This document shows, piece by piece, positions 8,791-22,098 of a DNA stretch of 35,490 bases (position 1 is the first letter of the stretch; every line of letters starts with the position of its first letter). The position numbers and the translations under genes are program-made. The DNA is from Anaeroplasma bactoclasticum. Its GTDB lineage: Bacteria; Bacillota_I; Bacilli_A; Acholeplasmatales; Anaeroplasmataceae. Below the pieces are notes generated by a model. That model worked only from the letters and a program-made list of their open reading frames with translations. It searched no databases and was not told where the DNA came from. The stretch spans positions 1-35,490 of the forward strand of contig JAMPGQ010000017.1 of assembly GCA_023663825.1 (NCBI GenBank). Reading direction: 5' to 3'.

Positions 8791-8842
8791 AATATAAAAG
8801 GAGCTATGAATCCCAATTTATCATTAGGTTTTTCATAGCTCC
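8791..8842 (-). terminator. Terminator after the downstream abiF RNA copy
   Basis: The 11-bp perfect stem GGAGCTATGAA/TTCATAGCTCC encloses an inner CCTAA/TTGGG stem (one G-T pair) and is followed by TTTTATATT on the minus strand. It ends the abiF locus. Confidence 0.8.
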
Positions 8843-8897
8843 TCCCTAAGGGATATCCTTAGGTTCGGCCAGAAAATATTATTTCTGGACTGCATTA
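8791..8897 (-). ncRNA. abiF-associated structured RNA, downstream copy
   Basis: Read on the minus strand: hairpin CCAGAAATAATATTTTCTGG (8888-8869, 7-bp stem), linker CCGAA, hairpin CCTAAGGATATCCCTTAGG (8863-8845, 7-bp stem), then a long terminator hairpin (GGAGCTATGAA at 8842-8832 with TTCATAGCTCC at 8810-8800) and TTTT. The linker and second hairpin are nearly identical to the copy upstream of abiF; the first hairpin keeps only CCAG/CTGG. It starts about 30 nt after the abiF stop in the same orientation. Structured RNAs called abiF are known beside Abi_2 genes; membership was not tested. No good own promoter is seen. Confidence 0.7.
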
Positions 8898-8928
8898 TTA
8901 ATATATGTTAATATTAAAAAAATATGAT

Positions 8929-9801
8929 TTATTTTAATAATTCTATCCAATTTTTAGGAAATCCAAATTGTTGCAATGGCTTAAGAGTTTTCTCTTTTGT
9001 ATTTTTTGTCATCTGAGTAATAATCATCTTCAAAGTCTCTCCCCATACTTTTTTATTTAAACACAATAATTTCAAATTATATAGTTGCAGAAACAATAAA
9101 TCCTGATTTAGAGAGGAAAAACCAATTTTCATTTTTTGGTCGTTAGTTAAATTAGGTTTGGTGGAATATTTTTTATTATTCAATATGTCCAAATGACAAC
9201 AAACATTTCTGATATTTTTGGCACATGTTATATTTGATGAAAATGTTGAAATACTAGTGTGATTGAATTCTTTTATTACTATTCTTTCAATGTCTAATGA
9301 AAATGTTCGAAAAAAATATATAGTTTCGCCAAAAGTTAGTTTCTGAATAATGGCAGAAATTGGCAATCTAACCCTAGTACTTTTAATGAAATATTTTTGT
9401 AAGAAAACATCATTTGGCGCCTTTCGAAAAGCTTGCTTTATATTTTCTATTTTCTTTTTAAATTCATTCTTATGCTTTATATTTTGAAAAAAACTATCTT
9501 CATTATAGGGATACTTGCTATTATAAAGCATAAAAATTGCTTTTGTCAAAATAGATTTAAAAGTTATTTCTATAGAGGAAACAAGATTAAACAACTGAAT
9601 TCTTAAAAAACTATCAAATTGTATTTTTTTAATTATACGCTCAAAATTGATATTTGGCCAGTCATTTTTAGAATAAGGGAAATATCTTTTTATGCGATTA
9701 ATGTCGTTAGTATTCAAAAAGTTTATCACATTAGCAGTTTTTTTGAATTTAATGTTGCAAAACTCCAGGTATTCAACATTTGATTTAAAATCCTTATTCA
9801 C
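8929..9801 (-). CDS. abiF: Abi_2/AbiF-family HEPN abortive-infection protein
   Basis: 290-aa protein of the Abi_2 family (AbiD/AbiF), phage-defence proteins that block growth of infected cells. The N-terminal half holds the family's long helices (VNFLNTNDINRIKRYFPY-like segment, then RIQLFNLVSSIEITFKS). The C-terminal half has a HEPN ribonuclease signature RNVCCH (R-x4-H, residues 198-203) after a conserved SAIIQKLTFGETIYFF segment. GTG is the start at 9801, with GGGAGG nine bases upstream. Structured RNA copies flank the gene on both sides in the same orientation. The upstream one has a promoter and ends in a terminator that abuts this ribosome binding site. Family known; RNA partnership inferred from layout. 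Confidence 0.85.
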   Translation of the reverse strand: MNKDFKSNVEYLEFCNIKFKKTANVINFLNTNDINRIKRYFPYSKNDWPNINFERIIKKIQFDSFLRIQLFNLVSSIEITFKSILTKAIFMLYNSKYPYNEDSFFQNIKHKNEFKKKIENIKQAFRKAPNDVFLQKYFIKSTRVRLPISAIIQKLTFGETIYFFRTFSLDIERIVIKEFNHTSISTFSSNITCAKNIRNVCCHLDILNNKKYSTKPNLTNDQKMKIGFSSLNQDLLFLQLYNLKLLCLNKKVWGETLKMIITQMTKNTKEKTLKPLQQFGFPKNWIELLK

Positions 9802-9820
9802 CTTTTATTACCTCCCACAA

Positions 9821-9880
9821 AAAAAGCCCTAAGGATATCCTTAGGATTCGGCCAGCTCAGGGAATCCCGTCTGGATCTAC
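9821..9880 (-). ncRNA. abiF-associated structured RNA, upstream copy
   Basis: About 60 nt on the minus strand. A first hairpin (9874-9852) has outer CCAG/CTGG and an inner GGG-ATT-CCC stem. The linker CCGAAT and the perfect palindrome CCTAAGGATATCCTTAGG (9845-9828) follow, then GC and seven T residues. A well-formed promoter sits just upstream (9887-9915), so an independent short transcript is likely. The GGGAGG ribosome binding site of abiF begins a few bases after the T-run. This matches the layout of RNA antitoxins placed before HEPN toxins; I recall an Rfam class named abiF in this context but could not test it. Confidence 0.75.
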
Positions 9881-9886
9881 GAACAC

Positions 9887-9915
9887 ATTATAGCATCTTA
9901 CAAAAAATAAATCAA
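9887..9915 (-). promoter_or_regulatory. Promoter of the upstream abiF RNA
   Basis: On the minus strand TTGATT (9915-9910), a 17-nt spacer, then a perfect TATAAT (9892-9887). Transcription would begin near 9880, at the 5' edge of the structured RNA and about 80 nt before the abiF start codon. Confidence 0.75.
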
Positions 9916-11413: not shown

Positions 11414-13318
11414 TTATCCTTGCAGTTTCTCTTCTAATGAAGAGGTTGCACCATAGCCTTGAACATCATTTAATATAGTACTATTAAAATTACTACTATT
11501 AGGTAGTTTGCTTCCATTAATTTTTAAAGCTAATTTACCATCTAAATTTTCTTTTGTAAAAGATACTTCTTTACCATCTTTATCTACTAATTTAACTTCT
11601 GTTGTAAAAGGAACATCTAAACAAATTCTTACTTCATTCGTTGTTTTTGATTTAAAGAAAAAATATACTTCTGTTTCATCTAATGTTGAGGATATACTAG
11701 AACTTATGGACTTTTGTTCATAAGATACAGAGTTACAAAATAAATAGTCAGTTTGCTTAGAAATCTGATTTAATATCCCCTTTACTATTACATCATATGC
11801 TTTATAATCATATACTTTTGCCATATCATTAACAGAAAAAGAAGTATTTGCTAATTTGTTCATATGATTTAAATAATCATCATAAATATTCGAAAATCCA
11901 AGACTATGACCTCCACAACCTGGAACTTGATATAAATCATATAATCCAGTTTCCCAATTGTAATGACGTCTACCTGACCAATATTCATAATAAGATGAAC
12001 TAGCTGCCAAATATGAAGCTTTTAATATGTCATCACCTAGATTACCCAAATAAATATCATTTTCAAATATTTTTGTGCCAATAATACGATTACTAATTAC
12101 ATTCAAAATTATTTCCTTATAATCTATGATATAGTTATTTATAAATGTTATACACTTTAATAAATCCGTATACTTTGCATTAATTATCTCTTCTTCTGAA
12201 GGTAATTCATTATAAGATTTTAATCTATTTGCTAAAATATAAGCTATATATGTTTTTAATTTATTACTTACTGTACCATTCCGAAAAGCTTCTGACCAAT
12301 TCCATGGCATTGTTTTTTCATCCGTATTATAACTAAAAGCATAGTAATATTGAATATTCCCTTTCTTCTCATATTTCCAAGTTGGAGTACCATAGATGGC
12401 ATTTTGAAAAGTAAGTAATTTCGCATGATACATCCTCAAAAAATCAGAAGTATATTTCATTTCTTTGTGATATATAGTTGGAGCACCTAAAGTTTCAAAA
12501 GTATATTGTAATGAAGTTTCACTAGTGAAATTTCCTGCTACATTTTCTGAACATATAGCTGCATATCTTTTATCATTTAGTGTAATATAATGTGAATGTA
12601 TTTTGCTATCAAATTCTACCATTTCACCATTTTGCATTTCTATATATCCTTCTTCAATATAAGGATCTTCTTTTGGATGAGTGCTAGAACCTCTAGGATA
12701 AGGTAAATATCTATATACAGGATATTCCTTTGAAGAATCAAGACTTTCACTAAATACATTCATAGAGTTATATGTTGTAAATGTCACATTATTAAGATTA
12801 TCCTTTATTGCATAAGTTTCGTTCTTGTTTGTATCCCCATATACATATTCTAGACGACTAATGATTTCTTGAGCCAACATATCAATTTGACGATCTACAA
12901 GTTTCGAAAATTCTACTTTATTCCCATTTTCATCTAGCACTATGCTGCTTGTCCCACCCATAATGATATTGGGTTGGAGTAAGTCCATACTTATCCAACT
13001 ATAGATAGGCTCTACTTTATTTATTTTTTCTTGTTTCTTATAAGTACATATAGAACAATCTTGTTCCTTTAGTCCTTCTTTTGAAGTGGTTGCTTGTTCT
13101 ATTTCTTGCCATTCTCCAAAAGAATGATTAGCTTCTTCACTTCTTTTACCACAACTACATTCTTTCCAATGCTTAGAGTCATTCTTACTCCAAGTAGATG
13201 AAAAAGAACATATATGGTTATCTTGTGATGGAGAATTAGTTTTCTCTCCACAAGAAGTAACTAAAGTGGCAGATAATATAAATATTATCAAAACTAAAAT
13301 GAATTTTAATCCCTTCAT
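11414..13318 (-). CDS. Large lipoprotein with His/Cys repeat
   Basis: 634-aa predicted lipoprotein: charged start MKGLKF, hydrophobic core, lipobox LVTSC with Cys23 as the lipidated residue. Residues about 35-95 form one HxW...C-x-C / HSFGEW...C-x2-C repeat (KHWKECSCGKR, then DCSICTYKK), also seen twice in the neighbouring lipoprotein and common in surface proteins of Erysipelotrichia-like bacteria. It probably binds metal through Cys and His (inference). The remaining 500 residues are Tyr/Asn-rich and unrecognised. After the TAA at 11414 the frame stays open for 25 coding-like codons (to 11339), so the C terminus may be cut by a nonsense change. Confidence 0.8.
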   Translation of the reverse strand: MKGLKFILVLIIFILSATLVTSCGEKTNSPSQDNHICSFSSTWSKNDSKHWKECSCGKRSEEANHSFGEWQEIEQATTSKEGLKEQDCSICTYKKQEKINKVEPIYSWISMDLLQPNIIMGGTSSIVLDENGNKVEFSKLVDRQIDMLAQEIISRLEYVYGDTNKNETYAIKDNLNNVTFTTYNSMNVFSESLDSSKEYPVYRYLPYPRGSSTHPKEDPYIEEGYIEMQNGEMVEFDSKIHSHYITLNDKRYAAICSENVAGNFTSETSLQYTFETLGAPTIYHKEMKYTSDFLRMYHAKLLTFQNAIYGTPTWKYEKKGNIQYYYAFSYNTDEKTMPWNWSEAFRNGTVSNKLKTYIAYILANRLKSYNELPSEEEIINAKYTDLLKCITFINNYIIDYKEIILNVISNRIIGTKIFENDIYLGNLGDDILKASYLAASSSYYEYWSGRRHYNWETGLYDLYQVPGCGGHSLGFSNIYDDYLNHMNKLANTSFSVNDMAKVYDYKAYDVIVKGILNQISKQTDYLFCNSVSYEQKSISSSISSTLDETEVYFFFKSKTTNEVRICLDVPFTTEVKLVDKDGKEVSFTKENLDGKLALKINGSKLPNSSNFNSTILNDVQGYGATSSLEEKLQG

Positions 13319-13321
13319 ATT

Positions 13322-13882
13322 CTAATTCTCCATTGCTTCATTTTTAATGTCTATATCCACATTTAATGCTTTTAATCTATCTGCTGAAGCAGAAACACCA
13401 CTATCCAATGCTTCCTTATATAATTTAGTTGCTAAAGCTATGTCTTTTGTTGTCCCCTGTCCTAATTCATAACATAAACCCAAATAATATAAGGCCTCTG
13501 GATGTTTTTCTTTTGCAGCACGATTGAACCATATATATGCTTGTTCATAATCCTTTGGTTTTCCTTGCTCCAAATAAAAGCATTTTCCAAACATAAATTG
13601 AGCTTCAGTATAATTCCCTTCAGCTGCAATTCTATAATTAATCGCCGCTTTTTTCAAATTTTTTCTCACACCTAATCCATTGTAATAGCAATTAGCGATT
13701 TTATAATAAGCTTCGAAATTCCAATACCGATAGATTGTTTTCTTGTACATACGAAAACCTTCATATAAGTTTTGAGGAACTACAACTCCTTCACTATAAA
13801 AATCACCAAGTTTACATAGCGCTACACTACTATACTTTTTTGCCGCTTTTTTATACCAATAAAGACCTAGTTCATAGTTCAT
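13322..13882 (-). CDS. Sel1-repeat protein, C-terminal part of a frameshifted gene
   Basis: 186-aa frame with about four Sel1-like repeats (LYWYKKAAKK..ALCKLGDFYSEG, then ANCYYNGLGV, FGKCFYLEQG, LGLCYELGQG). Its apparent ATG is created by a 7-nt tandem duplication (GTTCATA twice on the plus strand, 13870-13883). Removing one copy and restoring one base in the homopolymer at 13950-13955 joins it to the upstream Sel1 frame as one gene of about 330 aa. No ribosome binding site fits the apparent ATG as a designed start. The frame stays intact to its stop, which is followed closely by the 634-aa lipoprotein gene. Confidence 0.75.
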   Translation of the reverse strand: MNYELGLYWYKKAAKKYSSVALCKLGDFYSEGVVVPQNLYEGFRMYKKTIYRYWNFEAYYKIANCYYNGLGVRKNLKKAAINYRIAAEGNYTEAQFMFGKCFYLEQGKPKDYEQAYIWFNRAAKEKHPEALYYLGLCYELGQGTTKDIALATKLYKEALDSGVSASADRLKALNVDIDIKNEAMEN

Positions 13883-13921
13883 AATCTATATGTCCTCCTT
13901 CTCCGTCAACATAAAAATCTC

Positions 13922-14308
13922 CTAAAGAGCACATTGCATTAATATAACCTTTTTTGCAGCTTTTCTACAATAATAAACTGCTTGACTTAAATCTTGCTCT
14001 ATTCCCTCTCCATTAGCATAACAAACTCCAAAACTATATTGTGCGCCTATAGTTCCTTGATCCGCAGCTTTCTTATACCAATAGACTGCCTGTTCATATG
14101 ATTGCTCTACTCCTTCCCCATAATAATAGCAAGAGCCTAAATTGCACTGAGCTAAAGCATTTCCTTGTTCTGCTGATTTTCTAAACCAACAGACTGCCTG
14201 TTCATATGATTGCTCTACTCCTTTACCATTTGAATACATATATCCTAATTTATATTGAGCAATTGCTTGGCCTTTGTTTGCTTTTCTTATCAATTTATTT
14301 GCATTCAT
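13922..14308 (-). CDS. Sel1-repeat protein, N-terminal part of a frameshifted gene
   Basis: 128-aa frame with three clear Sel1 repeats (AQYKLGYMYSNGKGVEQSYEQA, repeated with AQCNLGSCYYYGEGV and AQYSFGVCYANGEGI). After AAKK the frame runs out (VILMQCAL), but a one-base shift at a run of six T (13950-13955 on the plus strand) continues the repeat as GYINAMCSLGDFYVDGEG. There is no signal peptide. GAGGAATCC precedes the ATG. It lies 18 nt after the GGN-repeat lipoprotein gene, so cotranscription is likely. It may be inactivated, phase-variable, or a sequencing error. Confidence 0.8.
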   Translation of the reverse strand: MNANKLIRKANKGQAIAQYKLGYMYSNGKGVEQSYEQAVCWFRKSAEQGNALAQCNLGSCYYYGEGVEQSYEQAVYWYKKAADQGTIGAQYSFGVCYANGEGIEQDLSQAVYYCRKAAKKVILMQCAL

Positions 14309-14326
14309 AATGGATTCCTCATTTCT

Positions 14327-16336
14327 TTAATCAACTGCATGTGCTTCATCATCTTCTCCGGATATATCAATTATATAAATTAATTTTCTTTCTCCATCAA
14401 AACCATCATACCCTTTACTTCCAGAATTATAATTTCCTTGATGATTTCCTGTAGTACCACCAGCAGCACCGCCTGTTCCTTTGTCAATTGTTTCTTTTTT
14501 TAATTTGGTTGAAAAATAGCATAGTGAAAATTTCGTATTGGCTGGTCCTAAAATATAAGTTTCCTCTATATCTCCGCCATTTCCGCCATTACCACCTGTT
14601 CCACCAGTAGCAGGATTGATATTATCTTTGTCAACATTACCTCCATTGCCTCCATTGCCACCTGTTCCTCCAAATCCCAAATCATTGGTTATAACTCTTT
14701 GGAATTCCACAAATTTTCCACCTGTAAGAACAATATTGCTATTAAATGGAGTCTTTGAAGTTCCACCATTTCCGCCATTACCACCGTTTCCACCATTAGA
14801 TGGTTGTGTTAGAAATGCTTGATCTCCTATTCCACCATTTCCTCCATTTCCTCCATTTCCACCATTACCACTTACAAATAAAATGGCAGATTGAATTGTA
14901 TTCATTTCAAAGTTTATTTTACTTCCTTGAATACAATAGCCACTATCAGCACCATTACCACCACTACCACCAGTGCCTGCAGTTCCCTTGCCTGACTTTG
15001 TTGCCCCTTGAGCACCATTACCGCCTTTACCACCATTTCCAGCAATTACAGATAAAGTGGTATCATAAGGTATTTTTTTAAAGGTGACATTTATGGAATG
15101 AATTGCTGTTCCACCTGTTGTTCCGCTTCCTCCAGCGGAGCCTGTAGATGTAGCATTTGCTCCATCAAAACCATTACCGCCTTTAATCTTTAATACTCCT
15201 TCTGCATTAATAATTAGATCATTGGATTGAATTGCCTTTCCTCCAATTGAGGTTGAGTTTTTGGAATCGGCACCATCTATTTCACAATATCCATTTGAAA
15301 AAATTTCCAGGGTTGTACAGTCTAATGCTGAACATTCACATGAACTAGCTTTTAAAATAACATTATTTAAATGCAGATTTATTTTTTGATTTCCTGAATA
15401 TTTAATAATACTATTCTTATCTATTGCAGATACTGAAGCATTTGTAATATAGATATTAAGCGTACTAGTACGAGAGTTCACAGATAAAGATAATGCATAT
15501 GATTTAATATTTGTAGCTTGCTCAGTTATAATACTTGAACCATTTATATATACAGCTGCATCTGTACTTAATATATTAATTATTCCATTATTTTCAGTTT
15601 CAAGATCAATCATACGGACTGAACCCGTTTTAGCAATTAAAGTAATTTTCTTTGTTGTCGATAATACTGTGCAACCAACTTCTATCTTCTCGTTTTCTTT
15701 TGTATTCTTGGTTGGAGTAATCTTACAACTTCCATCATTACTAACTTCGAGACTTGCAGTTCCAGAAAGAATTTCCCATTTTATTGCATCACATGGTTTA
15801 TCAGTCGGAGATATTTGAGCTGTAAGTACACTATAAGAACTTAAATACAAATCATTTCCTGTACTGGAAACTATTTCTTCCAAAACCCAATTAATTTTCT
15901 TATATTTACAAGTAGTGCATATTTCATTTGTATCAAATGTATGAGCACCTTTATCAGATACTAAATCTTTATGCGTACAAGTAGATTTATGCCAATGATG
16001 ACTAGAATCATTGCTCCAATCCTTTGAATAAGTATGTGCGTTTACTTGCTTCTCTATTGTTCTAGTTTCTTCATATTTACAAACAGAACAAGTTCTTGAT
16101 TCAATGCCTGTTGTAGTTTCAGTTGCTGCTTTGTTAGTAAGCCAATCTCCAAAACTATGGTTTTCTTTTTCAGTTTTTTCTTCCTTATGATTGCAGGTAG
16201 CTTGATGCCAGTGTCCTGTAGCATCCTTTTCCCAACTTTCTGAATATGTGTGCTTATGACCACATGATGTTATTAAACATACTCCTATAACCATAAAGCC
16301 TATTGATAATATAACTTTTAATACTATATTTTTCAT
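14327..16336 (-). CDS. Lipoprotein with His/Cys repeats and GGN-repeat domain
   Basis: 669-aa predicted lipoprotein. The signal peptide has lipobox LITSC (Cys25). Two His/Cys repeats follow (about 29-95 and 101-148: HTYSESW..HWHQATC..CSVCKYEE and HTYSKDW..HWHKSTC..CTTCKYKK). Next are an Ig-like or BIG-like stretch (about 150-240), a beta-rich, polymer-like domain (240-380), and four long Gly-rich blocks of GGN/GGX triplets (about 385-470, 490-525, 555-590, 617-640) separated by short beta segments. Such GGX runs can form polyglycine-II bundles. It is anchored outside the cell. GAGAGG precedes the ATG. The function is unknown; adhesion or a surface scaffold is a guess. Confidence 0.8.
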   Translation of the reverse strand: MKNIVLKVILSIGFMVIGVCLITSCGHKHTYSESWEKDATGHWHQATCNHKEEKTEKENHSFGDWLTNKAATETTTGIESRTCSVCKYEETRTIEKQVNAHTYSKDWSNDSSHHWHKSTCTHKDLVSDKGAHTFDTNEICTTCKYKKINWVLEEIVSSTGNDLYLSSYSVLTAQISPTDKPCDAIKWEILSGTASLEVSNDGSCKITPTKNTKENEKIEVGCTVLSTTKKITLIAKTGSVRMIDLETENNGIINILSTDAAVYINGSSIITEQATNIKSYALSLSVNSRTSTLNIYITNASVSAIDKNSIIKYSGNQKINLHLNNVILKASSCECSALDCTTLEIFSNGYCEIDGADSKNSTSIGGKAIQSNDLIINAEGVLKIKGGNGFDGANATSTGSAGGSGTTGGTAIHSINVTFKKIPYDTTLSVIAGNGGKGGNGAQGATKSGKGTAGTGGSGGNGADSGYCIQGSKINFEMNTIQSAILFVSGNGGNGGNGGNGGIGDQAFLTQPSNGGNGGNGGNGGTSKTPFNSNIVLTGGKFVEFQRVITNDLGFGGTGGNGGNGGNVDKDNINPATGGTGGNGGNGGDIEETYILGPANTKFSLCYFSTKLKKETIDKGTGGAAGGTTGNHQGNYNSGSKGYDGFDGERKLIYIIDISGEDDEAHAVD
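14550..15170 (-). repeat. Degenerate 9-bp repeats coding for Gly-Gly-Asn
   Basis: Runs of a nine-base unit (GGTGGAAAT-like with synonymous variation) occur in blocks near 14575-14680, 14760-14870, 14950-15050 and 15110-15180. Third-position variation shows the protein pattern is kept by selection and not only by recent slippage. Slippage could still change block length between strains. Confidence 0.7.
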
Positions 16337-16361
16337 ATTTTAACCTCTCATATAATAATGT

Positions 16362-16411
16362 AGGGGCTGTAAAAAAACCTAGGTTTTAGAAAACAGAGTT
16401 TTACAGCCCCT
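16362..16411. repeat. Palindrome with IS1182-like end sequence
   Basis: AGGGGCTGTAAAA (16362-16374) is inverted as TTTTACAGCCCCT (16399-16411), with TTTT after it on the plus strand. The GGGGCTGT end is the same as the outer end of the IS1182-like remnant at 20981-20988. It could be a minimal IS-derived element (MITE-like) reused as a transcription stop between the 42-aa ORF and the lipoprotein gene. Confidence 0.55.
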
Positions 16412-16420
16412 TTTTATGAA

Positions 16421-16549
16421 TTACCACTTGCTTTTATAGAATTGGCAAGAAGTTTGATTCCTGTTAGTACTCCAATTTTTCAAATAATGAAAGCACCATT
16501 CTACTCCATTCTTAACTCCGAAATATTCGCATGAACTACATGTTGGCAT
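16421..16549 (-). CDS. 42-aa cysteine-rich small protein
   Basis: 42-aa frame too short for most gene finders. The start ATG has a strong AGGAGGTGAG six bases upstream. The peptide has four Cys in a C-x2-C (MPTCSSCEYFG) ... C ... C arrangement, with Trp and Tyr-rich surroundings (VEWCFHYLKNW, SCQFYKSKW), suggesting a zinc-bound or disulphide mini-domain. No signal peptide. It is the last gene of the Sel1 run, 18 nt after the 296-aa gene and just before the palindrome at 16362. Not recognised as a known family; the ribosome binding site and Cys spacing are the support. Confidence 0.6.
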   Translation of the reverse strand: MPTCSSCEYFGVKNGVEWCFHYLKNWSTNRNQTSCQFYKSKW

Positions 16550-16567
16550 TTTACTCACCTCCTCATT

Positions 16568-17458
16568 TTAATTTCCTATATTTAACAATCTTAATATGGC
16601 TCTTTTATCGCCATTTTCAGATGCTAAGCTATAATACTCTCTTGCAAGTTCAATATTCTTAATTCCTCCTATGCCTAATTCATAACAGACTCCTAGTCTA
16701 AAATAAGCAGGAAGATATTTTGCCTCAACGAGTTCTTTATACATGACAAAAGATTTAGTCTTTTCTAACTCATTGCTAAAGTAATAATCAGCCAAAAGTT
16801 CTTTTGCATCCAAATTACCTTTTGAAATAGATTTATTCAGATATTCTAAAGCCAAATCGACATTTTCATATCCAAAATCCTTATTCAAATATATTAGTCC
16901 TAAATAATATTCTGCAAGTGAATCATTAAATTTTACTGCAGATTGAAAATACTTTATTGCTAAATAAATATTTTGAATATTCTTGCAGAATAAGAAAATA
17001 TATCCAGCGTTAACCATTGCTTCAGAATTATTTTCTTTTGCAAGAACTTCATAAATTCTTAAAGCCTTTTCCACATCATTTATATTTGGTGAGTTTTGAT
17101 AGAGTGTTGCAAGGTTAAACCCTGCTCTGTGATGTCCCATTTCATAAGCTTTTAAATATAACTTTTCTGCTCGATTGAAATCCATAGGATATTTTATACC
17201 TCTCTCATAGCAAACACCTAACACAAATATGGCTTCTATATCATCTTTTTCCACTAATCCTTCTATTTCATTAAAACGTGAAAAGAAAAGTTCCTCTATA
17301 TTAGAATCTTTCAAAAATCCCATAGATAATAAGATGTATGATCCATACAGGCATAAAACATCTACTTGATTAGATTGAAAAATTTGATAAGCATTCTCTA
17401 AATCTCCACTCTCTAATAATTTTTTTCCTCTAATGTAATATTCATGATTCATTACCAT
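16568..17458 (-). CDS. Sel1/TPR-repeat protein
   Basis: 296-aa helical-repeat protein. About seven degenerate Sel1/TPR units run through it (FVLGVCYERGIKYPMDFNRA, AGFNLATLYQNS, AEYYLGLIYLNK, FRLGVCYELGIGG). No signal peptide and no catalytic domain: a cytosolic protein-protein adaptor in family terms. The first ATG (17458) is used because AGGAG lies seven bases before it. It overlaps the stop of the upstream 133-aa gene by seven bases, so the two are translationally coupled. Confidence 0.8.
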   Translation of the reverse strand: MVMNHEYYIRGKKLLESGDLENAYQIFQSNQVDVLCLYGSYILLSMGFLKDSNIEELFFSRFNEIEGLVEKDDIEAIFVLGVCYERGIKYPMDFNRAEKLYLKAYEMGHHRAGFNLATLYQNSPNINDVEKALRIYEVLAKENNSEAMVNAGYIFLFCKNIQNIYLAIKYFQSAVKFNDSLAEYYLGLIYLNKDFGYENVDLALEYLNKSISKGNLDAKELLADYYFSNELEKTKSFVMYKELVEAKYLPAYFRLGVCYELGIGGIKNIELAREYYSLASENGDKRAILRLLNIGN

Positions 17459-17853
17459 TTATGCACTCCTATTTTACGGAAATTGGATTTTTTACGATAA
17501 GTATTATTCAAACAATCATTTTCTTTTAAATCTTTATCTTTTTTTATTGTTTTTATTAAAATCTTTAAATTAACAAATTCTAATTGTTCATATGAAGATT
17601 CTTCTATCCAACTTAGTAATTCTTGATGGACATTGATTAAATATTGCTTAGTTTCTATAGTTGGTTTAGAAGGTCCTACAATAGTTCCATTAGCTAAAAC
17701 ATAGAACAATTCTTTTTTTGAGTTATAATATAGATAAGTATTTCTGAAATGTAAATATATCAAATTTTGACATTGAAGATATGCATCATTTCCACTTGAA
17801 AATATTGCCACATATTTAAAATTTTCCGCGTTTGAATAAAATAATTTTATCAT
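17452..17853 (-). CDS. Unrecognised 133-aa basic protein
   Basis: 133-aa protein without signal peptide or membrane segment. The N-terminal 70 residues look beta-rich and aromatic (NLIYLHFRNTYLYYNSKKEL, then FYVLANGTIVGPS). A helical stretch (KQYLINVHQELLSWIEE) and a strongly basic tail (KKDKDLKEN..RKKSNFRKIGVHKW) follow. Not recognised as any family. It sits between two Sel1 genes with overlap at its 3' end and a 3-nt gap at its 5' end, so it belongs to the same operon. It may be a partner of the Sel1 proteins (inference). Confidence 0.65.
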   Translation of the reverse strand: MIKLFYSNAENFKYVAIFSSGNDAYLQCQNLIYLHFRNTYLYYNSKKELFYVLANGTIVGPSKPTIETKQYLINVHQELLSWIEESSYEQLEFVNLKILIKTIKKDKDLKENDCLNNTYRKKSNFRKIGVHKW

Positions 17854-17856
17854 ATT

Positions 17857-18690
17857 TTATTTTCTCCAATCATAATCTTCATATGGAGTATTTTCCACAC
17901 CATTTCTCTGTAGCTTAGATACTTTTTTATCTAATCTCTTTTTCCAATATCTTTGGAACCAATTTTTATTTCCAAATACCTTAACTAATTTTGGACTTAT
18001 TGCATAATATATTTTTATAAATGTTCTACCATACCATGTTTTTCCTAAGGTATTATCTCTATATCTTCTTAACGTCCATACTTGTGGACAATCATAAGAA
18101 CCATATACACATGTAGCAACATAGCAGCCATTTTTAGAAGTTGTTGTTGAACTATTAGTCGACTTAAATACTGTATTTAATGCTACTTTGGCTTTGGCAT
18201 GTCCTTGATTAGCAGCTCGTGTGCACCACATTTTGGCCTTATTAACATCCATAGGTACTCCTTCACCTTTGAAATACATTAAAGCTAAATTATTTTGCGC
18301 TGAGGCATGTCCTTGATTTGCTGCTTTTTCATACCATGAAGCTGCAATTAAATAATTTTTCTCTACTCCGTTTCCATGGTAGTACATATATCCTAAATTA
18401 TATTGAGCGGCAGAATCATTTTGAGCAGCTGATTTTTCATACCAATATCGTGCCATATCATAATCTTGGGAACACCCCCAGCCATTATCATATAATACTC
18501 CTAAATGATACTGTGCTTCAGCAACTCCATTCATTGCAGCTTTCTCCAACCAATACTTAGCAATTACATAATTTTGAGGAACACCAAACATACCATGTAA
18601 ATAGACACTAGCTAAATTATTTTGAATTTCTATATTGCCATTATTGGCAATTTCAGCAAGTTGTTTTAATTGTGATTCATCTAAATACAT
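17857..18690 (-). CDS. Sel1-repeat protein with CFI-box C-terminal domain
   Basis: 277-aa protein. Residues about 10-175 hold four to five strict Sel1 repeats (AQYHLGVLYDNGWGCSQDYD, AQYNLGYMYYHGNGVEKNY, AQNNLALMYFKGEGV). A Ser/Thr linker leads to a C-terminal domain from NGCYVATCVYGSYDCPQV through RRYRDNTLG and RTFIKIYYAISPKLVKVFG. That pattern matches the 'CFI-box' C-terminal domain (CFIATAAYGS-type), here with CYVATCVYGS. The last 90 residues are about 92% identical to those of the next gene. No signal peptide. Its start codon follows the upstream stop directly (TAGATG), so coupling is likely. Confidence 0.85.
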   Translation of the reverse strand: MYLDESQLKQLAEIANNGNIEIQNNLASVYLHGMFGVPQNYVIAKYWLEKAAMNGVAEAQYHLGVLYDNGWGCSQDYDMARYWYEKSAAQNDSAAQYNLGYMYYHGNGVEKNYLIAASWYEKAANQGHASAQNNLALMYFKGEGVPMDVNKAKMWCTRAANQGHAKAKVALNTVFKSTNSSTTTSKNGCYVATCVYGSYDCPQVWTLRRYRDNTLGKTWYGRTFIKIYYAISPKLVKVFGNKNWFQRYWKKRLDKKVSKLQRNGVENTPYEDYDWRK

Positions 18691-19920
18691 CTATTTTCTC
18701 CAATCCAAATCTTCATATGGAGTATTTTCTACACCATTTCTCTGTAGTTTATTTACTTTCTTATCCAATCTCTTTTTCCAATATTTTTGGAACCAACTTT
18801 TATTTCCAAATACCTTAACTAATTTTGGGCTTATTGCATAATATAGTCTTATAAATGTTCTTCCATACCATGTTTGTCCTAAGGTATTATCTCTATATCT
18901 TCTTAATGTCCATACTTGTGGGCAATCATAAGAGCCATATACACACGTAGCAACATAGCAACCATTTTTAGAATGTTGCGTACTAGTTTTTTTAAAAGCT
19001 TCCACTGCCTCTTGTGCATCAGCATCCCCAAGATTTGCTGCAGCCTCATAATAGGAATATGCTTTTGGATGGTCTTTAGAAACTCCATATCCAAATTCAT
19101 ACATCGCTCCCAACTTAAATATTGCTGGAGCATAATTTTGTTCCGAAGCTTGATTTAAGCAATATAATGCCTTATCGTAATTTTGGGAACAGCCTAGTCC
19201 TGCTGCGTACATTGAAGCTAACTCTGATTGTGCTGCTGCTAGTCCTTGATTAGCTGCTTGCTCAAAATAATACTTTCCTTTTTGGTAATCTTGTGGACAA
19301 CCTTGACCATTTGCATAAATAACTCCTAAATTATATTGGGCTTCTTTCAAACCTAAATCTGCGGATTCCTTAAAATATTGCATTGCCTTTGTCAAGTTTT
19401 GTGAAACACCTAAGCCTTCTTGGTAAAAACACCCTAGATTATATAGTGCTCTTCGTTCTTTTAAACTAGCAGCTTGTTCATAACATTCTTTAGCAGTGGC
19501 ATAATCATTATTTTCGCTAGCTATGATTCCTAAAGAATAAATTGATTCTTTATGCCCTTGCTTTGCAGCTTGTTCAAACCAATACTTTGATAAAGATAAA
19601 TCTTTTATTTCTTCTATTGGTCCAGAATATGCCTCTCCTAGATTGCATTGTGCCACTACATATCCTTGTCTTGCAGATTTTTCTAGCCATTCCAATGCAA
19701 TTTTAACGTCATTTTCTCCTTCTGCTTTTTTAAATAGTTCCATAGCCAATTCATTTTGTGCTTCTGCTGAACCTTGATTGGCTGCTTGTTTTAACCAATA
19801 CATTGCTTCCTCATCAGATGTTACACCTATGGATTTTTTGCCTAACCATAGCTGTGCATTCATGTCCCCTTGTTTCGCAAAAGGAGTTATTTCTTCGATT
19901 GTCATTTCTTCATAATTCAT
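18691..19920 (-). CDS. Sel1-repeat protein with CFI-box C-terminal domain, longer paralogue
   Basis: 409-aa first gene of the Sel1 operon. About eight Sel1 repeats (AQLWLGKKSIG, AQCNLGEAYSGP, RALYNLGCFYQEGLGVSQNL, AQYNLGVIYANGQGCPQDYQ, IFKLGAMYEFGYGV and others) span residues 10-310. The same CFI-box C-terminal domain follows (CYVATCVYGSYDCPQVW to the end). GGAGGCATCC precedes the ATG at 19920. The repeats differ strongly from those of the downstream paralogue while the C-terminal domain is nearly identical, so that domain was either duplicated recently or kept the same by gene conversion. The operon runs on through five genes to the 42-aa ORF. Confidence 0.85.
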   Translation of the reverse strand: MNYEEMTIEEITPFAKQGDMNAQLWLGKKSIGVTSDEEAMYWLKQAANQGSAEAQNELAMELFKKAEGENDVKIALEWLEKSARQGYVVAQCNLGEAYSGPIEEIKDLSLSKYWFEQAAKQGHKESIYSLGIIASENNDYATAKECYEQAASLKERRALYNLGCFYQEGLGVSQNLTKAMQYFKESADLGLKEAQYNLGVIYANGQGCPQDYQKGKYYFEQAANQGLAAAQSELASMYAAGLGCSQNYDKALYCLNQASEQNYAPAIFKLGAMYEFGYGVSKDHPKAYSYYEAAANLGDADAQEAVEAFKKTSTQHSKNGCYVATCVYGSYDCPQVWTLRRYRDNTLGQTWYGRTFIRLYYAISPKLVKVFGNKSWFQKYWKKRLDKKVNKLQRNGVENTPYEDLDWRK

Positions 19921-19961: not shown

Positions 19962-20100
19962 CCACCTATTAAGATAATTTATGGTCTTTTTTAGAAAGAA
20001 AGTAATTGTATTTCAAGGAAATTATTGCAAAATATTCCTAAAAATGATAAAATTAGACCATAAATTATTTAAAACAACCATCTATTATCTTAATAGGTGG
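19962..20100. repeat. Inverted duplication of the transposase 3' end
   Basis: CCACCTATTAAGATAAT (19962-19978) is perfectly inverted at 20084-20100, and AATTTATGGTCT (19976-19987) at 20055-20066. The right arm is the transposase's last codons plus trailer; the left arm lacks about 18 nt between the two blocks. The arms flank 67 nt and could fold into a large cruciform upstream of the Sel1 operon. Confidence 0.75.
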
Positions 20101-20895
20101 TCTTTTTATGAAGTAATAGGACTTACGAAGAGATTCATTAGGACCAAGTTTTCTTTTCTTTTTAAGAATTTTTTCATAGTCAACAACAGGAATAGATTCA
20201 GGTTTCAAATCAGCAGGAGCAATCCAACAGTCAGTTTTAGCTTTACCTTCAATTAAAGTGAATAGCTTTCTAATATTATAGCCAAGACAAATTAACATAA
20301 ACTCCAAAGAAAGATAGGTAGCCACTTCCTTAGAAACGAAAGTATTTTTATTATCAGAGATAGGGAAATATTGTATAAGTAATTTCTTAATCTTATCAAA
20401 AAGCTTTATTTTAAATTTAGTAGGCTTATAAACAAATTTATATTTATTAGCATTAGCTTCAATTTTAGTACCATCAATGAAACAATCATCTATGCAGAGA
20501 TTATATTTGAGAAGAATAGTTTTAGTGATAGCGGCAAAGATGGCTTCAAAGTGTTTAACAACTACGTTGTTAAGAAACTTAGAAATAGTAACATAGGATG
20601 GAGTTTCTTGATTTAAGATGTAGATAAATCTCAAATCAAATTTAATACTTTCTTCAATTTTTCTTAAACTACCTGAGTGTTTTGAAAAGGCATAGATAAT
20701 AGCAGCAAATAATCTATATGGGTTATAGGAGTTTCTACCTCCTAAGCTCTTATCCTTATTTGTTTCTTTGTATATTATCTTACCTACACCAGATTCTTCT
20801 AATACCTGTAGAAAAGAATCAATTTTTTCTCTTTCCCCTCGACTTAGTTCAGCGGTAGGAAATAATTGGTCTTGATAGATTGTGAAAAAAGACAT
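20065..20895 (-). pseudogene. IS1182-type transposase with internal deletion
   Basis: 276-aa frame from the ATG at 20895 (GGAGG upstream). The N-terminal domain (SGVGKIIYKETN, GGRNSYNPYRLFAAIIYAFS, RKIEESIKFDLRFIYI) and the start of the catalytic domain (CIDDCFIDGTKIEANANKYK, with the first Asp) are present. The frame then jumps in phase to the post-catalytic segment (SLEFMLICLGYNIRKL). Full IS1182 transposases are about 450-550 aa, so roughly 200 residues with the remaining catalytic acids are missing. It is not expected to transpose. Confidence 0.8.
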
Positions 20896-20942
20896 AAAAA
20901 GCACCTCCTGATACTTTAATTGTATCAAAAAGGTGCCTTTCA

Positions 20943-20980
20943 CACAAAAAAGAAGCCGTTAGAAACTTTTTAGTTTCTTA
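20943..20980 (-). terminator. Terminator between integrase and IS remnant
   Basis: On the minus strand GTTAAGAAACT pairs with AGTTTCTAAC (about 20982-20957) with loop AAAA, followed after GGCTTC by TTTTTT. It is part of the IS end and would stop transcripts leaving the integrase. Confidence 0.6.
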
Positions 20981-20995
20981 ACAGCCCCTGATTTG

Positions 20996-21655
20996 TTATA
21001 GAATTTGAACTATTTTATTCATCTCTTGAATCTTATATTCAAGTAAAGAATGGGCATATCTATTGAGAGTTATAGCTACATTGGTATGTCCTAGAATTTC
21101 AGATAATGTCTTAATGTCCATACCTAGTTCTAAAGCTCTAGTGGCAAAGGTATGCCTTAGACAATGGAAATTATAATGTTTGATTTTACATTTCTTTAAT
21201 ATTGATTCAAAGCTTCTTTGATAGCTTCTAGTTTCTACCATTGTTTTTCCTCTTGTATGAATGATAAATTTACATATAGATTTATTCCTATATATCGTAA
21301 GTAAGTTGATAAGTTTATCAGGTAATGGAATAACTCTATTGGATTTCTTGGTTTTTGGGGATTCTACTATGAAGTCTTTCTTTCTATCTTTCCTAAGTGT
21401 ATAGGAAGTTTTTTTTATATATAAATACTTTTTATTAAAGTCTATATCCTCCCAAGTCAATGCAAGAAGTTCTCCTAATCTAATCCCTGTATAAAGACAA
21501 ATGATAATACCTAAATAGTTATTCTTATTACTCTTTAAACAATATTCTTCTACTACCTTTTGTTCTTCTCTAGTTAAGGCACTCACTTCCTTTTCTTTTG
21601 AAGGGGGTAATTTAATTGTAGATGTTGGATCTTTAAGTATAAAATCCAAATTCAT
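20996..21655 (-). pseudogene. Tyrosine recombinase, catalytic part of a frameshifted gene
   Basis: 219-aa frame with the whole catalytic domain of a phage/ICE-type integrase: Arg in YTGIRLGELLAL, H-x2-R in HCLRHTFATR, His in LGHTNVAI, and the Tyr nucleophile in LNRYAHSLLEY. The natural gene starts upstream in another frame; the reading frame AFHLAMNLDF shows that its first Met is internal. The 3' end abuts the IS1182-like element (gap about 6 nt), so the IS landed next to the gene without clearly truncating it. Probably inactive owing to the frameshift, unless that is an assembly error. Confidence 0.8.
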
Positions 21656-21924
21656 CGCAAGATGGAATGCTTGTTTAATACAGACACAATACTAGATACT
21701 GTATTAGAAGCTAATGCTTTGTGTGTAATAAGATTTCCCGAATTCAGTTTGTCAATGACATAATCCTGTAGGAGTGTTGGGGTGATGGATTCTAATTCAT
21801 AGTTCCCTAGTATGGGATTGATATGGAGTAAAGTAATCTCCTGATATTTACTAAAGCTCCTTATCTTTAGAGTAAGTTTGGCATATTTATTTAGCCAAAG
21901 ATTTAATAATTCTTTTAGTTTCAT
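21652..21924 (-). pseudogene. Tyrosine recombinase, N-terminal DNA-binding part
   Basis: Frame of 90 aa from the ATG at 21924 (AAAAGGAG upstream). It holds the SAM-like core-binding domain of integrases (LNLWLNKYAKLTLKIRSFSK, ITLLHINPILGNYELESIT, LASNTVSSIVSVL). It then ends in NKHSILR at a TGA. Adding one base at the short T-run 21674-21676 restores VLKQAFHLAMNLDF and joins it to the catalytic part. Together they give about 310 aa, slightly short for ICE/phage integrases because the N-terminal AP2-like arm is missing. Confidence 0.75.
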
Positions 21925-22098
21925 GTGTGTGACTCCTTTTTGCATAATTATATAGCAAAAACACAAAAACTTAGAAATATTAGCTTTGTAAAACGAATTG
22001 AATTATGAAATGAAATTGGTCTTTAAGTGCCTGGTAATGCTAGGAGATATGTTCAATCTAAATTGTGAAATATATTTTTTTGTTACACAACAAATATG
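21925..22098. other. Integrase upstream region, candidate attachment region
   Basis: About 170 bases without a gene between the integrase start and the terminator pair. An attachment site is often found beside an integrase gene, but no repeat of it is seen elsewhere in the window. A GTGCCTGGTAATGCTAGGAG stretch (22028-22047) is richer in G+C than its surroundings; its role is unknown. Confidence 0.35.

Follow-up and report, generated by a model that had tools for sequence, protein, structure and literature searches.

An abiF gene encoded between two homologous copies of an abiF-type RNA in Anaeroplasma bactoclasticum

Cas13 has been proposed to derive from AbiF toxins that have RNA partners. 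The locus described here raises the question of why such a toxin gene should have a structured RNA on either side, and whether this layout is a working arrangement or the residue of a duplication. It lies in a 35,490-nucleotide stretch of contig JAMPGQ010000017.1 of Anaeroplasma bactoclasticum (assembly GCA_023663825.1), hereafter the window. The reading favoured below, which the sequence makes reasonably likely, is that of a type III-like toxin-antitoxin locus: the gene of an AbiF HEPN RNase would be flanked on each side by a copy of the RNA that the enzyme binds. The features are collected in Table 1.

Table 1. Features of the abiF locus, in window coordinates
Feature	Position	Strand	Basis or remark
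RNA1 promoter	9887..9915	(-)	TTGATT, 17 nt, TG-extended TATAAT; scan 10/12 matches
RNA1, upstream abiF-type RNA	about 9819..9880	(-)	sequence, fold, terminator scan
RNA1 hairpin 1	9874-9852	(-)	
RNA1 linker CCGAA	9851-9847	(-)	
RNA1 hairpin 2	9845-9828	(-)	followed by the U tract
Ribosome-binding site GGGAGG of abiF	9811..9816	(-)	sequence; directly 3' of the RNA1 terminator
abiF toxin gene	8929..9801	(-)	290 aa, GTG start, Abi_2
CATATATTAATAATG, conserved -10-like block directly 5' of RNA2	8893..8907	(-)	identical in G009
RNA2, downstream copy	about 8795..8892	(-)	sequence; fold z = -7.8
RNA2 hairpin 1	8888-8869	(-)	
RNA2 linker CCGAA	8868-8864	(-)	
RNA2 hairpin 2	8863-8845	(-)	
RNA2 third hairpin	about 8844-8801	(-)	followed by UUUU

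The assignment of the protein to Abi_2/AbiF, made in the first-pass annotation together with its RNVCCH motif, stands on several lines of evidence. The protein scores 82.6 bits against Pfam PF07751 (Abi_2; cut-off 25.6 bits, E 6e-23), PADLOC calls it AbiD (3.6e-37), and the HEPN RNase motif RNVCCH, of the R-x4-6-H form, occupies residues 198-203. Its nearest solved structure is PbAbiF (PDB 8vz6, E 2.3e-7), with which the RN-CCH motif aligns. An AlphaFold2 model built from two sequences has a mean pLDDT of 45, too poor for the dimer fold to be judged. The gene is the only Abi_2 gene of the 2.06 Mb genome, and the locus does not have the make-up of a CRISPR-Cas13 system, as there is a single Abi_2 domain in the 290 residues and two RNA copies without an array. 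A tblastn search with the protein returned two distant plasmid matches and no phage match, and viral contigs yielded nothing when queried with the RNA pattern or with the proteins of the window, L009 and L041. Elsewhere in the window, genes for Sel1-like repeat proteins cluster at positions 11414-19920 with those for large lipoprotein-like proteins, the C-termini being near-duplicate in the 18-19 kb region, and remnants of mobile elements lie at positions 20065-21966, namely part of a transposase (DUF772) and the two ORFs of a split phage integrase.

The upstream copy, RNA1, opens with a hairpin of the form CCAG-A-CGGG..CCUG-AG-CUGG, which contains an asymmetric internal loop. The CCGAA linker is followed by a U, by the second hairpin CCUAAGG-AUAU-CCUUAGG, then by a C and seven U. 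The terminator scan identifies hairpin 2 and this U7 as an intrinsic terminator ahead of abiF, and both hexamers of the promoter are kept in two related genomes, G009 and G002. On the minus strand the order is promoter, RNA1, terminator, ribosome-binding site and GTG, that is, an RNA gene directly 5' of an RNase toxin with a terminator in between, as in type III systems; the tandem RNA array of such systems is absent, a single copy lying 5' and a single copy 3' of the gene. In the proposed mechanism RNA1 would be transcribed from its own promoter, most transcripts ending at hairpin 2. A minority would read through into abiF, a step suggested by the layout and by the precedent of Clostridioides difficile RCd22. 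RNA1 would act as both antitoxin and attenuator, binding AbiF and blocking its RNase as RCd22 does and PbAbiFr is reported to do, and the toxin transcript would never be made without an antitoxin RNA in cis.

The downstream copy, RNA2, is homologous to RNA1 and lies in the same orientation across the gene. The first-pass annotation had described an RNA-like element on each side of abiF in the gene's orientation, with correct positions and motifs, and its shared CCGAA and CCTAAGG/CCTTAGG hairpin recur as described, the hairpin 2 loop being one C longer in RNA2 (CCUAAGG..CCUUAGG). The sequence common to both copies, CTGGCCGAA(T)CCTAAGGATATCC(C)TTAGGG, is unique to this locus in the 2.06 Mb genome; the pattern CTGGCCGAAN{0,2}CCTAA (CTGGCCGAA..CCTAA) has exactly two occurrences genome-wide and its reversed control none. 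Within the 35 kb window the best match to RNA1 besides itself is RNA2 (score 46, against at most 37 elsewhere), and the similarity between the two sides of the gene is significant at p = 0.0017 when pairs taken across loci serve as the null. The first hairpins, of which only the outer CCAG/CTGG had been described as shared, differ in kind: RNA2 has a continuous 7-bp stem, CCAGAAA..UUUCUGG, without an internal loop, both in the window genome and in G009. Both earlier suggestions, a duplicated RNA or two partners distinguished by their first hairpins, hold as descriptions, since the copies are homologous and hairpin 1 differs in kind. The long third hairpin of RNA2 and the UUUU behind it are separate parts, which had not been distinguished.

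Both RNAs are under constraint within the genus and are kept far better than neutral sites. G009, a same-genus genome (Anaeroplasmataceae), encodes an AbiF protein 87% identical to that of the window, with RNAs on both sides of the gene. Its RNA1 matches that of the window at 51/53 positions, compared with 35/53 (66%) at the 4-fold sites of abiF and 57/95 in the DNA 5' of the promoter. The only changes in RNA2 fall in the hairpin-1 loop, at one leader base, at one base pair of hairpin 2, where A-U replaces G-C by a compensatory change, and at a 1-nt indel in the hairpin-2 loop. These are the only two genomes of the window lineage with both RNAs. G002 keeps RNA1 intact next to an abiF cut to an N-terminal remnant, and RNA2 is absent. 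G009 additionally contains a solo RNA without abiF, 5' of a racemase gene (L019, G009:C13, 37200-37345, minus strand), whose 5' part is RNA1-like (55 and 40, against 14) and whose 3' part is RNA2-like (93-95, against 44). Such a chimera is the expected product of recombination between the copies that removes abiF, and the solo RNA is therefore likely a scar of that event.

The RNAs of this locus lie outside the reach of the existing Rfam model. The first-pass annotation had named the Rfam abiF model as a check on both copies; RF03085 matches neither RNA1 nor RNA2, at the gathering score or at E 10, while the positive control phiC2 is matched at 37.6 bits. The same two settings gave no abiF match at 40 other loci of the host class, and both copies of one genome, G163, are weak matches (23.9 and 25.3 bits). 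Most AbiF-linked RNAs of the class are thus missed by the model, so the rule that AbiF has an RNA partner is broader than annotated.

Is the bracketing peculiar to this genus? The sequences 5' and 3' of each Abi_2 gene of the class were compared, with pairs across loci as the null and hairpin interiors compared separately; many of the searched genomes are fragmented and some may be metagenome assemblies. A same-strand RNA pair was found at 9 of 100 AbiF loci, belonging to the window genus, to G163 and G414 (family f9), to G453 (f17) and to G410, G209 and G179 (f14), including L078, a second locus of G410 added by eye. Mapped on a tree of the 100 proteins, the nine bracketed loci require four changes, at least two of them forced by well-supported branches; within the class, same-strand bracketing of AbiF is spread over four separate clades. 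None of the 21 plasmid and phage loci tested is bracketed. Bracketing is a minority arrangement, and its earlier description as "less usual" is right as a frequency, yet the layout is recurrent and conserved. Because the same layout is found in at least four distant AbiF lineages, it probably represents a working design, in which each toxin gene is provided with two antitoxin RNAs, rather than a duplication that arose by chance. A chance or recent functionless duplication is very hard to credit: two-copy repeats are common and the window lineage by itself offers a small sample, but recurrence in four clades, the lack of further occurrences of the motif in the genomes and the covariation described below, whose counts contradict it, stand on the other side.

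Several repeats around abiF genes were set aside in this survey. The up/down repeats of L066 and L217 are not RNA, that of L217 being the start of a recombinase gene, and that of L215 was taken as terminator-like; none was counted. The repeats of a racemase 3' end in L003 and of a guaA-like 3' end in L038 are not RNA either and were not counted, these two loci being classed as bracketed on their RNAs only. In both, the 3' end of the adjacent gene is present as a direct repeat on the two sides of the abiF module, over 83 bp for the racemase in G009 and about 124 bp for the guaA-like gene in G414, as if the module had been inserted there. To note, the distant viral AbiF locus L217 (an IMG/VR contig) has an upstream RNA with the f14 core AAACTTTCGAAG and a different stem (GGTAG/CTACC).

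The f14 clade is the strongest evidence for the recurrence of the layout. The family was searched with the L041 AbiF, yielding loci of 47-95% identity, and in each of the 24 whose flanks are both readable one RNA lies upstream of the gene and one downstream. When 42 of these genomes were scanned for the pattern, 24 pairs with a spacing of about 950 bp were found bracketing the gene, together with few solos; the controls gave no hits, and one pair, in G613, surrounds a broken abiF. The 27 distinct f14 RNAs fit a 10-pair structure in 270 of 270 cells, with no broken stem pair, whereas sliding the partners by one column lowers pairing to at most 56%, and double-change cells number 32, against 9.2 +/- 2.2 after shuffling. 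Between the upstream and downstream stems of the same locus 47 of 168 pairs differ, 35 by double changes, 12 by single changes and none by a broken pair. An Abi_2 protein is nearly universal in f14 (266 of 291 genomes match); at the loci sampled (L034, L036, L044 and others) the main copy has no evident upstream RNA, usually has another open frame directly 3', and is seemingly a housekeeping AbiF.

These data bear on the origin of RNA2. The second copy likely arose from a tandem abiF that was lost, and it might persist as nothing more than the leftover upstream RNA of that gene, kept since the loss of an antitoxin is costly. A short copy of the abiF start codons stands behind the downstream RNA of L173 (G179), and the G002 remnant and the G009 solo RNA illustrate that RNAs outlast their toxins. 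Retention in 24/24 loci across the f14 divergence, with compensatory changes and a -10-like box, does not resemble decay, and simple persistence of a leftover is considered decidedly unlikely.

The box in question is a TATAAT, present before 22 of 27 downstream f14 copies as compared with 17% in shuffles, at about the spacing of the upstream -10. The CATATATTAATAATG block of the window occupies the position equivalent to the conserved TATAAT before the downstream copies of other lineages. No clear -35 accompanies this block, and none is evident before the f14 downstream copies. The upstream stem is richer in G-C pairs than the downstream one at 22 of 24 f14 loci, which would follow from an additional duty of the upstream copy as a terminator; the downstream copy would be free of this duty. 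That the two copies serve as mere terminators is rejected, as RNA2 of the window and the copies of one f14 subclade carry a separate terminator 3' of the RNA. RNA2 could instead be a cis element of the abiF mRNA, either a 3' AbiF-binding site, through which the toxin would cleave or hold its own message, or a stabiliser or terminator, and would not be a trans-acting antitoxin. The downstream RNA indeed lies 30-50 nt past the stop codon without a good -35, a U tract ends it in some lineages, and processing of the cognate RNA by AbiF has been reported (review PMC12737573). The TATAAT conserved at a homologous distance suggests a start of its own, however, and the separate terminators just mentioned do not fit such a role, which is judged unlikely. 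Antisense copies, moreover, could not act likewise in cis on the sense message. These occur in L028 and L178, where the second copy overlaps the abiF stop codon, with an identical inner core and a changed stem; L177 looks like a degraded version of this layout.

RNA1 and RNA2 of the window may be non-equivalent: as hairpin 1 of RNA2 has no internal loop, RNA2 may not inhibit AbiF as RNA1 does. Pushed further, the two could be opposites, RNA1 inhibiting AbiF and RNA2 competing for the same site as a decoy or trigger. The continuous hairpin 1 of RNA2 in the window genome and in G009 would fit such opposition, as would the inhibition by single-stranded bulge bases reported for PbAbiFr (PMC12737573). 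In f14, on the other hand, the internal loop and the core AAACTTNNGAAG are common to the two copies (one downstream copy has AATCTT), so opposition is not general, and it is regarded as improbable. Bracketing could also define a distinct class of AbiF loci with two non-equivalent RNAs, in which copy number and position diversified before CRISPR-type arrays, though this is put forward as a speculative idea. Equally tentative is its functional counterpart, an upstream antitoxin/attenuator combined with a separately regulated downstream RNA, for example a 3'-end RNA or a trigger RNA changing AbiF activity.

In the preferred reading, that of two antitoxins per toxin gene, RNA2 would be a second, selected AbiF-binding RNA, obtained from the 3' part of the read-through transcript, from a weak promoter of its own, or from both, and the two motif copies per locus would serve a homodimer holding two RNAs. 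What the sequences themselves establish is that the copies are homologous, constrained and recurrent; that they are expressed, bind AbiF and neutralise it, and that the locus takes part in phage defence, are proposals.

Among these systems, the abiF RNA RF03085 is likewise a small hairpin RNA adjoining an Abi_2 gene in the same orientation, as are RNA1 and RNA2. RNA1 shares with it an outer stem, a single 5'-side A, an inner stem and a longer unpaired 3' side; the window RNA differs by its additional conserved linker and second hairpin, and the covariance model reports neither copy. ToxIN, TenpIN and CptIN, whose toxin fold is unrelated to that of AbiF, also place an RNA antitoxin 5' of an RNase toxin, from which an attenuating terminator separates it. 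Unlike in the window, their antitoxin repeats all stand upstream in tandem and none downstream (PMC5086642). PbAbiF-AbiFr (PDB 8VZ6), the solved structure closest to the window protein and one that has the RN-CCH motif in common with it, is a homodimer with two RNAs (PMC12373285). The accounts of it consulted make no mention of bracketing, and no description of this layout was found in the literature covered, the original abiF-motif (NAR 2017) and PbAbiF papers being outside its scope.

The closest parallel is AbiFCd-RCd22 of C. difficile (PMC12373285), an Abi_2/AbiF HEPN toxin with an RNxxxH motif and two abiF motifs per locus, in which a structured RNA with its own promoter lies directly 5' of the toxin and a terminator separates the two. 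RCd22, which contains the two abiF motifs, binds and neutralises AbiF as an RNA antitoxin; it mostly ends at the terminator before abiF, and read-through yields the toxin message (PMC12373285). Both of its motifs, unlike those of the window, reside in one upstream RNA, and both are RF03085 matches (37.6 and 19.5 bits). Bracketed loci offer a natural system for asking why there are two RNA motifs and whether both occupy the dimer, and they bear on the way in which RNA copies around a HEPN nuclease increase in number. Two motifs per gene may well be the common theme, arranged in tandem in C. difficile and bracketing the gene in the window.
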